Origin: a virus
DNA: 40,102 nucleotides
Direction: 5' to 3' (one strand)
IMG/VR virus record: IMGVR_UViG_3300037516_000789
Location: 1 to 40,102 of that record
Shown here: positions 26,060 to 31,035 of the stretch, piece after piece
Layout of the letters: each line of letters starts with the position of its first letter
Position numbering within the stretch: the stretch's first letter is position 1
The notes under the pieces: generated by a model
What the model was told of the DNA's origin: nothing
Seen by the model: the letters and a program-made list of their open reading frames with translations, nothing else
The model's database searches: none
Made by a program: the position numbers and the translations under genes

Positions 26060-26521
26060 TTATAGGCGAGGACGAAAGATGATCACGGCTAAAGGGAATG
26101 GCCACGCTTGCCCGTTGGCGTTCTTCGCTCGCCCTTTCGGGAAGCGGACTTCCCCCTTCACGGCGTAGCGGTGCCACCATTCCGTATCTACGCGGGCAGG
26201 CACGAAAGCCACCACAAGCGCGCCATTGTCGCGGGCTTCCTCATAGGCTTTCTTCATCCACGTTCCAAGCTCCCGACCATAGGGTGGATTCATGAAGACC
26301 CGTTCATCTTGCCAGCTTTGTGCCAGCCCGTCTTCTTGAGGTGTGTAGTGCTTCTTGCACTTGGCTGTTTCATGATGGCAACACGGGTCGAGGGTAAACT
26401 TGAATTCAAGGTCGAGGTAGCTAAACCACTCTCGCGGTGTTGCCCATGTCATATCCACGCTTGATGACATGACGATTCGGGAATGTTTCGATATCGATGT
26501 TTTTTTGGATAGTTCGTTCAT
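26060..26521 (-). CDS. Dam-type DNA N6-adenine methyltransferase
   Basis: A 153-aa protein of the phage Dam family: after a short N-terminal tail (MNELSKKTSISKH), WATPREWFSYLDLEFKFTLD is a conserved opening, followed by DERVFMNPPYGRELGTWMKKA, which holds the catalytic NPPY motif. It uses SAM to methylate adenine, possibly to protect the phage from restriction. It is smaller than E. coli Dam and has no separate recognition domain. It follows the DnaB-type helicase gene. Confidence 0.88.
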   Translation of the reverse strand: MNELSKKTSISKHSRIVMSSSVDMTWATPREWFSYLDLEFKFTLDPCCHHETAKCKKHYTPQEDGLAQSWQDERVFMNPPYGRELGTWMKKAYEEARDNGALVVAFVPARVDTEWWHRYAVKGEVRFPKGRAKNANGQAWPFPLAVIIFRPRL

Positions 26522-26533
26522 TTTGTTGTTTGG

Positions 26534-27904
26534 TTAGTGTCCGCTCTTCTTCTGCGGTGTTGTCGATTTCTTCTTCCGTTGCACGAATCCATTCTTGAAT
26601 CGCACAAGTGAAGAATCGAAAATGAGATTGATGGTTTTCCCGCCGTGGCCGTTGTGCCGGTCCTTGGCGAGCAGGATGTCGTAATGCTGCCCGAAGCTCT
26701 CGGATTGCTTGTCGCGCTCCTGCTGGATGATCAAATATGCATCGCAATCCTCGACCGCCACAATCCCGTGCTTGGTGTCTCCGTTCTCGTTGATCTGGGA
26801 AAGTAGCAGGATTGAAATACTGAGTTCCTGCGCGATTTCCTGGATGCTGTGTGAGATTTCGGAGATTTCGCCTTCGCTGGATACAGCCTTGCACCGGATG
26901 AGTTGGAGGTAGTCGATGGAAACGACCTTCGCGCCGTTTTCCCTCACGCCCTTACGGATCACTGACAGTAGCGTCCGCAGTTGCCGGTTAGCGGGGCGAA
27001 CGAGCTTGATGGGCGCTTCGATCAGCTTTTCCGTGGCTTTGCTCAGGCTTTGGAGAAACCCAGTGTTGGTTTCCGGCACGTCGTTTTCTTCGGCGTAGGT
27101 TTTCGGATCCATGAAAGCGCCGGATGGGACTCGGGAAACCTGGATGAGTTTCCGGTCCATCGAATCCTTCTCCTTCATCTCGTAATTGATTTCGAGGCAT
27201 GAATGACCGGCGAGGGCGCATTCCAGAATGATCTGGGAACCAAGAACTGATTTACCCCCGCCGGAGTATGCGCCGATGATAATGACCCGCCCCGGATGTA
27301 GCCCCCGGAGAAACTGGTCAATCTCAGGAATCGTCGGGATCCCCATCGGGCTTTGTTTGCCGTCCAGACGTGCCTTGTAGGCCGCGAAACACTCGCCGAT
27401 GATACTCCGCGTCGAAATCGGGGGCTTGGAGGCCGTGAGGGCATCGTGGACGGCTGTTATCGGCCCGCTGGCGGCTTCAATCATCTCCTCGATCTCATCC
27501 TCAAATGCCGACCGCACCAATTCCTTGCCGGCGTGGATGGCGAGCCGCTTCGCGAGGTAGTGATTGAGCTTCTCCACATGCGCCGGGAGATGCATCGGCA
27601 GCGATGCCCTTTCCATGATGCCAGCCAGTCCCGAATACCCGCCGATAGAGTCCATCAGTCCCCGGCTGTTGATCTGCTCGACCAGCGTGACGAAGTCAGT
27701 GATTTGGAAATTTGTCTTGGCCCGCATCTCTGCCGCGAACTTGAAAACCGTCCGGGTGTCTGGCAGGTGGAAGTGCTCCTCGGTGACATGCGGGAAATCA
27801 TCGAAGGTTTCCGGGTTGTTCAGGAAACACGAAACGACATCGCGCTCATGCGCCGGAGAGTGCGGCATCGGGTATTCAACGGGGATGTGGATGAAATCGT
27901 TCAT
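26534..27904 (-). CDS. dnaB: DnaB-type replicative helicase
   Basis: A 456-aa protein with the DnaB N-terminal domain (EYPMPHSPAHERDVVSCFLN) and a RecA-like C-terminal motor. Walker A is GAYSGGGKSVLG; Walker B is VVSIDYLQLI; ILLLSQINENGD is motif H3-like and AKDRHNGHGGKTINL the H4 region with the arginine finger. It unwinds DNA ahead of the replication fork. It overlaps the initiator gene as ATGA, so it and its loader are made together. Phage-encoded helicase suggests replication not wholly dependent on host DnaB. Confidence 0.93.
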   Translation of the reverse strand: MNDFIHIPVEYPMPHSPAHERDVVSCFLNNPETFDDFPHVTEEHFHLPDTRTVFKFAAEMRAKTNFQITDFVTLVEQINSRGLMDSIGGYSGLAGIMERASLPMHLPAHVEKLNHYLAKRLAIHAGKELVRSAFEDEIEEMIEAASGPITAVHDALTASKPPISTRSIIGECFAAYKARLDGKQSPMGIPTIPEIDQFLRGLHPGRVIIIGAYSGGGKSVLGSQIILECALAGHSCLEINYEMKEKDSMDRKLIQVSRVPSGAFMDPKTYAEENDVPETNTGFLQSLSKATEKLIEAPIKLVRPANRQLRTLLSVIRKGVRENGAKVVSIDYLQLIRCKAVSSEGEISEISHSIQEIAQELSISILLLSQINENGDTKHGIVAVEDCDAYLIIQQERDKQSESFGQHYDILLAKDRHNGHGGKTINLIFDSSLVRFKNGFVQRKKKSTTPQKKSGH

Positions 27905-28677
27905 GCGCTGCGGAGTTCAGGGTTTTCCTCGAAATAGCGGACGGCCTTTGCGCGGGCTTTGCTCCAGTTGTTGAGGAGTGTTGAAATCGTCGTCATGCGG
28001 TAGCCGTTCTCTGGGATTTCGTAGGAGTAGTGTTCGCCGATGAGGTCCATGTCCTCCGGGGATGGGTCCACCTGGGTGAGCGCGATGTATTCGGAGACGG
28101 TCCAGAGGGTTGCTTCGCGCTGCCCGAACCATTTGCCGATTCGGATCATCTCGGGAGTGTTGCGAGTGACCTTGACGCGGCCTTGTTCGGTTTTGGTGAG
28201 TCGGTTCCATCCTTGGGGGAGGATTTCTTGAACGAAGGGAAATCCCCCTTGGGGGTTGGGGGGTGCTCCTTTCCCTTCCCTGTTCCCCTCCTTTCCCTTC
28301 CTTTCCAGACGTTCCTCGTCCGGTATCAATACCGTATCAATACCGTATTCGTGCAACTCCTTAAGTTTGCTGCGCTTAGGCTTGTTGATCACTTGATGTT
28401 CCAAGAAGGAAACCACTTTCCCGATGTCCCCATGGGTGGGGTGTTTTCTAATCGAAATATACCCTATTTCGGACAGCTCCCGTATTGATACCGTAGTGAT
28501 ACCGGATTCGTCATCGAACGGGCGGATGGCATTTCGGATCAGTTTGGCGTCGGCGTAGAAATAGCCCTCGTCATCCGCGACGTTCAAAAGCCCGATAGCA
28601 AGCAGCTTGGTCGCGTCGGATTTGCGGCCCATCACGGGGTGCTCCCAAAACTCCGGTTTGATGGTGCGGATTCTCAT
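27901..28677 (-). CDS. Replication initiator/helicase-loader-like protein
   Basis: A 258-aa protein starting MRIRTIKPEFWEHPVMGR, a common N-terminus of phage replisome organisers. The first 110 residues look like a winged-helix domain (LLAIGLLNVADDEGYFYADA). A polar linker with GKGAPPNPQGG leads to a C-terminal helical part with EEQ/NWSKARAKAVRYFEE. It would bind the origin and load the phage DnaB-type helicase, encoded right after it. Two iteron-like clusters lie inside its coding sequence (28322-28503), like the lambda O gene. Confidence 0.8.
   Translation of the reverse strand: MRIRTIKPEFWEHPVMGRKSDATKLLAIGLLNVADDEGYFYADAKLIRNAIRPFDDESGITTVSIRELSEIGYISIRKHPTHGDIGKVVSFLEHQVINKPKRSKLKELHEYGIDTVLIPDEERLERKGKEGNREGKGAPPNPQGGFPFVQEILPQGWNRLTKTEQGRVKVTRNTPEMIRIGKWFGQREATLWTVSEYIALTQVDPSPEDMDLIGEHYSYEIPENGYRMTTISTLLNNWSKARAKAVRYFEENPELRSA
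28322..28503. repeat. Iteron-like clusters, candidate replication origin
   Basis: Left cluster: two perfect tandem copies of an 11-base unit, GTATCAATACC, at 28323-28333 and 28334-28344. Right cluster: GTATTGATACC (28482-28492) and GTAGTGATACC (28493-28503), the same period; GTATTGATAC is the exact reverse complement of GTATCAATAC. Between them is an A/T-richer stretch with a palindrome CGAAATA/TATTTCG (28453-28459 and 28465-28471). The layout resembles an origin placed in the initiator gene. Confidence 0.65.
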
Positions 28678-28842: not shown

Positions 28843-31035
28843 TCAAAACAGACTGAGTTGCGCTTTTGCGTTTTTGAGGTTTTGAATCGACTGGCCGAAA
28901 TAGGAGTCTTTCAATTCGCTCCCGATGAATCTCCGGTTCAGCTCCAGCGACTTCACGCCCTCGCTCCCGATGCCCATGAACGGCGAGTAAACCAAATCAC
29001 CCTCATTGGTCCACAGCTCAACGGCACGCTCGACCACATCAAGCTGGAGAGGGCAAATATGGCGCTCGTCGGCATGGTCACGCGCTCCATTTTTATTCAG
29101 GACGTTGCCCTGGTCCACCGTCATCCATACCGGCGATGCCACTTCCTGCCACCAGTCCACCGGATATTTGTCTGGATCCTTCGTGACCGGGTTTGGATTC
29201 TCGCCGGGTTTGCGGAAAACAATCAGGTAGTCCGCGCAACCGACGCGGGAGTCGCATGAATCGGCCTTGAGCGTTTTGTATAGCAAGCCGTGCGCCTTTG
29301 TCCGTTGCATCTCGGTTACGGGCGATTTCCAGATGCAAATCCGCGAATGGAACAGGAAACCGTGTTTCCAAAACATGCGGATGATTTCACCGCTGAAGTC
29401 TTGGAACTCGATTTTCCCGTGCTTCCACTTCGTCGATAGCAGGTCAACGCAATGCACGGCGACCTCGCGCCCCGGTTTCATGATCCGCGCCATTTCCTCG
29501 ATGAGGATTTCAAAATGCGCCTTGAACTCTTCCATGTCCGAGCAGTTGCCCATGTCCTGGAGGTCGTCGGAGTAGGTGAAGAGATCGGCGAATGGCGGGG
29601 AGAAAATAGAGAAGTCGATTGACTCGTCCTCGATCTGTTTTGCGACCCTGACGCAATCGCCGTGGTGGATTTCCCATCCGTCGCCGGTGGCTGTGTTGAT
29701 GTCTGTTTTCATGCGGTGTTGTTTTTTTTCGTTTTCGACAAATGCGGCTGCTGCCAGTTTCATGCGCTCCTGCATTTCTTTATGCTGAGCAATCTTGCGG
29801 TTGATGGATCGGACGATTGCGCCCTCGGTGCTTGCTTGGACGATGTAGGCGTTGACCTCGCGTGTTTGGCCGAATCGGTATGATCTGCGGAGTGACTGGT
29901 AGAAGTCCTCGAAAGAATAGCTGAGTCCGACGAATGCGACGTTCCGGCAGTTTTGAAAGTTCAAGCCATAGCCAAAAATCCCGGCCTTGCTGATGAGAAC
30001 GCGGATTGATCCGTCAACGAAACCGTCCGCGGAATCCTCCTTTTTCTTGCCCGTGTCGCTACCGCGCACTTCGACGGCGTCGGGAATCGCGGCTTTGAGT
30101 TGGCTGGATTCGTCATTGGTGTTGCACCATACAATCCACTGCTCGTCCGACCCATTGACCAACTCGGCGACCTTGGCAACGCGAGCAGGCGAGGTCATCC
30201 GCATTTCCTTATGCATCGTGGTTGCACTCATGGTAGCGTGGCGGAATAGCTCCTCATCACCTGCGCCTGTCACCTCATCCACATCAACCGTGATGCTGTG
30301 GAGTGATAGCTCCGGCAGGATGTATCCTGCGTCATCATAGCCAATGTCGGACGGCTTAGAAACGCATGCCGCCCACGATGCAACCCATGCCCAGAAGTGG
30401 GATTCAGCGTGTTTTTTCAAGCGCCAGTCGCCAGTATTGAACGTATCGTTGATGAAGAACGTCGCGAGCATCTGCGCCGGCGTGGATACCCCTAGGAAGT
30501 CGGCGTGTTGACCGAACTCCGTGTAATCATTTGGAGACGGTGTGGCCGTGCAACAAAGCCGATAGGGAGTTTGCGCGAATGAATCCGTGAGTTTCCGGCG
30601 AAGTTTTCCGGTGAAGTTTTTCAGGATGCTGGATTCGTCGAGAACGACCCCGACAAATTGCGAGCAGTCGAAATGATCGATCTTCTCGTAGTTGGTTATG
30701 TAGATTCCGGTCGTCTGGCATTCGGCTTGCGATGCTACGACCTTGGCTGCAATCCCGAATTTCCGCGCCTCGTTCTCGGTTTGATGAGCGACGGCGAGCG
30801 GGGTCAGGATAATAACCGATTCCCCGGTTTCCATTACGACCTGATGCGCCCACTCAAGTTGCTGGAGAGTTTTCCCCAGTCCGCAGTCCTCAAATAGAGC
30901 CGCCTTGCCGGTGCGGCATGCCCATTGCACGACGTGGGCCTGCCAGTCAAACAGCGGGGCTGTGATGGGCCGGGGGTCGAAACCGGCGGCAACGTGTGAG
31001 CGGTTTTTTGCGAGGATAAATTGGTCGTAGTTCAT
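28843..31035 (-). CDS. SNF2-like helicase fused to a beta-class DNA methyltransferase
   Basis: A 730-aa protein starting MNYDQFILAKNRSHVAAGFD; a start at 31134 would be in frame but lies in noncoding-like sequence. Residues 1-460 are an SF2/SNF2-like ATPase: Walker A DCGLGKT (50-56), LDESS as motif II (132-136), CTATPSPND as motif III, and SLRRSYRFGQTREV as motif VI. After a helical linker, residues from about 480 form a beta-class methyltransferase: IFSPPF is motif IV, and YSPFMGIGSEG near the end is motif I. The last five residues QLSLF match the bacterial beta-clamp binding consensus. It probably methylates DNA while translocating on it, in step with replication. Confidence 0.88.
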   Translation of the reverse strand: MNYDQFILAKNRSHVAAGFDPRPITAPLFDWQAHVVQWACRTGKAALFEDCGLGKTLQQLEWAHQVVMETGESVIILTPLAVAHQTENEARKFGIAAKVVASQAECQTTGIYITNYEKIDHFDCSQFVGVVLDESSILKNFTGKLRRKLTDSFAQTPYRLCCTATPSPNDYTEFGQHADFLGVSTPAQMLATFFINDTFNTGDWRLKKHAESHFWAWVASWAACVSKPSDIGYDDAGYILPELSLHSITVDVDEVTGAGDEELFRHATMSATTMHKEMRMTSPARVAKVAELVNGSDEQWIVWCNTNDESSQLKAAIPDAVEVRGSDTGKKKEDSADGFVDGSIRVLISKAGIFGYGLNFQNCRNVAFVGLSYSFEDFYQSLRRSYRFGQTREVNAYIVQASTEGAIVRSINRKIAQHKEMQERMKLAAAAFVENEKKQHRMKTDINTATGDGWEIHHGDCVRVAKQIEDESIDFSIFSPPFADLFTYSDDLQDMGNCSDMEEFKAHFEILIEEMARIMKPGREVAVHCVDLLSTKWKHGKIEFQDFSGEIIRMFWKHGFLFHSRICIWKSPVTEMQRTKAHGLLYKTLKADSCDSRVGCADYLIVFRKPGENPNPVTKDPDKYPVDWWQEVASPVWMTVDQGNVLNKNGARDHADERHICPLQLDVVERAVELWTNEGDLVYSPFMGIGSEGVKSLELNRRFIGSELKDSYFGQSIQNLKNAKAQLSLF

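Follow-up and report, generated by a model that had tools for sequence, protein, structure and literature searches.

The stretch of viral DNA analysed here (IMG/VR record IMGVR_UViG_3300037516_000789, 40,102 nucleotides, hereafter the window) encodes a predicted helicase-methyltransferase whose C-terminus, QLSLF, is a peptide of the beta-clamp binding type. We think it probable, with odds of roughly two in three, that this protein is an orphan phage DNA methyltransferase joined to an SNF2 translocase, which uses QLSLF to sit on the host beta clamp and methylates freshly replicated phage DNA. According to the mechanism we propose, a methyltransferase that has no nuclease is fused to a motor that would translocate on double-stranded DNA, and the C-terminal peptide would dock in the protein-binding cleft of the host sliding clamp or, elsewhere in the family, on a phage-encoded clamp. 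The enzyme would gather on newly made phage DNA through the clamps that remain behind the fork, and there the SNF2 motor would carry the methylase along the duplex or remove bound proteins. The phage DNA would be modified as it is made, and the likeliest gain would be protection from host restriction, because the related dyad protein DarB has this effect (PMC5512222). The analysis itself shows domains and motifs that are intact, a tail under selection and conserved through the family, phage clamp genes linked to the gene in several lineages, and a location in the replication module; from these we infer that the protein binds the clamp, that it methylates DNA (as m4C or m6A) in step with replication, and that this serves to evade restriction.

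Domains and genome neighbourhood of the helicase-methyltransferase

The mechanical open reading frame of the helicase-methyltransferase reaches 31134, 33 codons upstream of the ATG at 31035; we placed the start at this ATG because the homologues begin there. The features of the protein and of its neighbourhood are the following:

28843..31035, minus strand: helicase-methyltransferase gene, 730 amino acids (ATG at 31035, stop at 28843; start according to homologues)
29716..31035, minus strand: SNF2-type ATPase part, residues 1-440 (Pfam SNF2-rel_dom and Helicase_C; invariant motifs; model fits PDB SNF2 motors)
30868..30882, minus strand: Walker A motif GLGKT, residues 52-56 (K55 kept in 169/171 relatives)
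28891..29697, minus strand: beta-class amino-methyltransferase part, residues 447-715 (Pfam N6_N4_Mtase; TTHA0409 match)
29590..29601, minus strand: methyltransferase motif IV SPPF, residues 479-482 (conserved in relatives)
28846..28860, minus strand: C-terminal clamp-binding-type peptide QLSLF, residues 726-730 (kept in homologues; low-confidence end of the model)
27901..28677, minus strand: replication initiation protein, next gene downstream (PHROG 1408)
26534..27904, minus strand: DnaB-like replicative helicase (Pfam DnaB_C / DnaB, PHROG 19)
26060-26521: second methylase of the window, Dam (PF05869), following the replication genes

A match to PHROG 16 (E=3e-67) spans nearly the entire protein, and the relatives found by tblastn align over almost the full length with 30-48% identity. 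The preliminary description had recognized an SNF2-type ATPase and a beta-class methyltransferase in one protein ending in QLSLF, and the Pfam domains, the conserved motifs and the translation of the minus-strand frame, which ends ...NAKAQLSLF, all agree with it. Pfam detected SNF2-rel_dom, Helicase_C and N6_N4_Mtase only, and no nuclease domain of the kind expected in a type I / ISP enzyme. The 171 fused relatives hardly vary in the Walker A lysine, in DES[S], in motif VI (QxxRRxxRxGQ), in SPPF or in PFxGIGSE; within motif IV, S479, P481 and F482 are present in all 171 and P480 in 168. From this near-invariance, both the ATPase and the methyltransferase activity should be present. In the AlphaFold2 model (mean pLDDT 82) one part matches SNF2 motors of eukaryotes and another the beta-class methylase TTHA0409, which is the best PDB match of the methyltransferase part by sequence (fold TMt about 0.8). 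An SPPF motif IV usually accompanies an m4C product, and its occurrence here suggests N4-methylcytosine. The nearest solved methylases, however, are a mixture of adenine and cytosine-N4 enzymes, and the methylase of the phage dyad was called adenine-specific in its published description (PMC5512222), so that the product may be m4C or m6A.

The window contains genes for a terminase, a portal, a ClpP-type protease, a GP7-type capsid protein, an integrase, RecT, DnaB and a replication initiator, and judged by this gene content it is a temperate siphophage. The helicase-methyltransferase gene is flanked by the integrase and by replication genes and lies away from the head genes; the replication initiation gene adjoins it in some relatives, too. 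No DnaN clamp gene was found in the window and none of its ORFs searched matched a polymerase, hence it is the host clamp that would be used. An alignment-based scan of bacterial genomes for relatives yielded 80 loci, whereas a scan with the single helicase-methyltransferase sequence returned none. The nearest relatives in the alignment-based scan were in Verrucomicrobiota MAGs (74 and 71%), which suggests that the phylum of the host is probably Verrucomicrobiota.

Conservation and placement of the C-terminal peptide

QLSLF is identical to the clamp motif at the C-terminus of B. subtilis PolC, for which a KD of about 3.8 uM was measured, and which binds the E. coli clamp more tightly, the consensus being QxxLF (PMC12309361); the consensus of bacterial clamp-binding peptides has also been given as QL[SD]LF (PMC9690074). 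The identity with a measured peptide bears out the earlier classification of QLSLF as a beta-clamp binding peptide, with the difference that PolC is a polymerase, while the window protein is a predicted methylating enzyme with putative clamp binding.

A search of the homologues for QLSLF-like ends had been proposed as a test of this idea, and its outcome was favourable. When the tail pentapeptide was scored as Q-x-x-[LMI]-[FLW], it was found in 147 of 247 usable tails of relatives, compared to 11.4 expected from shuffled tails, and in 26 of 52 lineages (<70% identity), compared to 2.1 expected by shuffling; divergent forms recur. The same pentapeptide occurred in the last 20 residues of 28 of the 1346 other ORFs of these loci (2.1%), and QL[SD]LF in none of the 1346 control tails. 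Measured against these controls, the QLSLF tail is not a product of chance. Nor is it peculiar to this phage, a possibility that was rejected because homologues carry the same or similar tails. The preliminary description considered a clamp-tethered form unusual; within the family it is not, the tail being common among helicase-methylase relatives, and this phage is no exception.

The tails of 80 close relatives (QLSLF, QLTLF, QTELF, QLELF, QIDLFA, QTELALV, QTDLALFA) nearly all fit the pentapeptide or hexapeptide form of the clamp motif, and among more distant relatives QASLF, QPTLFDF, QKTLF, QGDLF and QISLW were found. In 42 distinct close sequences the Q and the penultimate L are fixed and the final F is present in 39, but these sequences were picked for ending in QxxL[FL], hence the amino-acid identity is not informative, and what counts is how the synonymous codons vary. 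Q is encoded by CAA or CAG about equally, all six leucine codons are used for the penultimate L, and the positions neighbouring the fixed residues vary freely. The retention of the motif residues with varied synonymous codons indicates that the tail is under selection at the level of its protein sequence.

Q has been lost in a sizeable minority of the lineages (e.g. MPSLF, VPTLF, SGSLL). Many lineages without it keep a degenerate form such as MPSLF, MPDLF, VPTLF, TKDLF or ASSLF, and a few tails (L100, L251, L235) have no recognisable motif. Several clostridial and gut relatives (L232, L238, L204, L247, L253) end in GQMSIEDFL, GEQISFESF or similar sequences, whose spacing differs and resembles the PCNA-type QxxIxxF motif. 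One relative (L083 8055-10283), from a virus attributed to Methanosarcinales, ends in QASLFTFGEEKETA, a tail that fits the bacterial clamp motif and the archaeal PIP-like spacing alike.

The motif is located 12-34 residues beyond the last conserved methylase element, after a linker of variable length, and in relatives up to 54 residues may come after it. As the confidence of the AlphaFold2 model is low over the tail residues, the variable linker and trailing residues suggest that the tail is probably flexible and outside the fold. Two marks of a clamp client are present: an exact motif at an accessible site, and its retention in homologues beyond chance. The helicase and the methyltransferase are separate genes in S-LBS1, Ramsey, EBPR podovirus 1 and others, and in such split-gene relatives the clamp-type peptide is on the methylase. 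The separate helicases often end in a short common peptide, [LV]P-x-[FW]-L or LPxW (L086 1241-2617, L088 2838-4217, L089 1001-2374, L090 1001-2377 and L095 2983-4398 are loci of this kind), with which they may dock to the methylase.

Control phage methylase families carry the motif in part only: it was found in 7/73 tails of a family related to a methylase of Microcystis phage Mae-JY28 and in 4/13 streptococcal tails, where L463 was counted on QNRIL and also ends in the motif-like QMCLF. The stand-alone streptococcal phage methylase L099 515-1210 ends in NAQLSLFDEV, a tail kept in close relatives and mostly lost in distant ones. The Dam methylase of the window ends in FRPRL and lacks the clamp motif.

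Clamp genes beside the relatives

In Arthrobacter phage Seahorse and Paracoccus phage Pthi1 a gene for the DNA polymerase III beta subunit adjoins the helicase-methylase or is one gene off. A search of all fetched helicase-methylase loci detected DnaN-type ORFs in 12 distinct records, representing roughly 8 of the 52 lineages; Pfam found clamp domains in all seven of the DnaN-type ORFs tested, and in five cases (Pthi1, L160, L181, L205, L236) the clamp and helicase-methylase frames abut or overlap. No DnaN-type clamp was found in 111 control loci from 48 lineages that had RecT or Dam at their centre; these loci vary in length, and 12 of them carry the helicase themselves. With the lineage counts being approximate, the enrichment beside the helicase-methylase corresponds to a Fisher P of about 0.006. 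Seahorse-like clamps are present in only 174 of the 50,697 records of the phage collection, and four annotated phages with clamp genes have no helicase-methylase alongside. The linkage is one-sided, an enrichment and not a strict pair.

A helicase-free methylase of a second type in Microcystis phage Mae-JY28 (L366 4947-7676) ends in QIDLFGAVA and lies just downstream of a phage DnaN gene, an arrangement shared by its close relative L369. A clamp gene is nearby in several loci of this family, yet its tails are mostly without the canonical motif, thus adjacency alone is no proof of docking. For the helicase-methylases, the clamp-binding reading of the tail is well supported by sequence comparison, because the motif is kept in homologues, divergent forms recur, and clamp genes adjoin in several lineages.

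Known systems and alternative roles

Helicase-methylase fusions had been described as known in phages, and they are: examples are DarB and the proteins annotated as "DNA helicase/methylase" in actinophages. The window protein, which has an SNF2-type ATPase with intact motifs and an amino-methyltransferase in the same polypeptide, shares domains, domain order and family (PHROG 16) with the phage SNF2 ATPase-methylase dyad. The dyad itself is a known family, and what appears to be new is the tail and the linkage to clamp genes. In a literature search of open-licence full texts, no paper was found to describe a clamp tether for this family, and the word 'clamp' does not occur in the paper on the dyad and DarB (PMC5512222); compared to that description, our results add a clamp-like tail that much of the family retains. 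The DarB protein of phage P1 joins, similarly to the window protein, an SNF2 motor to a DNA methylase, and shields DNA from restriction by type I systems (PMC5512222). It is a component of the virion head and protects the injected DNA in cis. The window protein differs from DarB: in its 730 amino acids no further domain was detected, and its clamp-type tail would suit a role in replication inside the cell. The position of its gene among replication and not head genes leans against a virion-packaged, injected DarB-like protein.

It is possible, though unlikely, that the tail does bind the clamp but the main job of the enzyme is control of replication, recombination or repair (origin use, fork restart, strand discrimination) and not anti-restriction. 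The neighbours in the window and in the relatives, i.e. replication initiator, DnaB, RecT and phage clamp genes, would suit such a role, and replication-coupled plasmid methylases that aid establishment are known (PMC7736820). The action of two such enzymes, M.EcoGIX and M.BceJIII, depends on the replication mode (PMC7736820). They are, like the window protein, beta-class amino-methylases of mobile elements, but they depend on Pol I, act on single strands and have no reported helicase domain. Against replication control as the main job, the catalytic methyltransferase residues are kept throughout, and the published dyad protein DarB guards DNA against type I restriction (PMC5512222).

We consider it very unlikely that the tail serves some other partner as a docking or structural peptide, or is a degradation tag, and that its likeness to clamp motifs is a coincidence. 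The minority of tails without Q would fit this explanation, whereas the clamp-motif pattern at all positions, hexapeptide variants included, and the linkage of clamp genes to the helicase-methylase do not. We rejected the degradation tag, since the motif often lies inside the sequence; with up to 54 residues following it, it is not strictly a terminal tag. It is about as unlikely that the enzyme acts as a clamp inhibitor, its tail competing for the host clamp and slowing host replication or repair. The peptide fits the cleft-binding consensus and such peptides do block the cleft (PMC9690074), but a decoy would not need large, intact and strongly conserved ATPase and methyltransferase domains, and in some phages a clamp of their own is encoded next to the gene. 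A part in a restriction-modification or defence system against competing phages, which the resemblance of an SNF2 motor plus methylase to components of type I/III and BREX-like systems and the PADLOC matches to type II methyltransferases and, weakly, to DpdE might suggest, is hardly tenable in view of the lack of a nuclease domain in the protein (Pfam) and of the flanking integrase and replication genes.

It is interesting to compare the proposed clamp-tethered methylase with DNMT1-PCNA, in which a DNA methylase is tethered to a sliding clamp and new DNA is methylated (PMC9690074). As that system is eukaryotic, produces 5-methylcytosine, and has an unrelated methyltransferase class and clamp motif, the likeness is a functional analogy only. 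We give slightly better than even odds to the wider proposal that the phage helicase-methylases, as a large and diverse family, are anchored through a C-terminal peptide on the bacterial clamp or on a phage clamp of the same operon, and that this would amount to replication-coupled methylation in bacterial viruses, a convergent counterpart of DNMT1-PCNA.

Phage orphan methylases with SNF2 motors are widespread. The clamp tether, if true, could explain the presence of a sliding clamp gene beside the methylase in some phages, and it opens replication-coupled methylation in phages to simple binding and deletion tests. It would also answer how phage methylases find phage DNA amid host DNA and what use a motor is to them, in that they would act where copying happens: judged by its sequences, this family probably marks viral DNA during copying.
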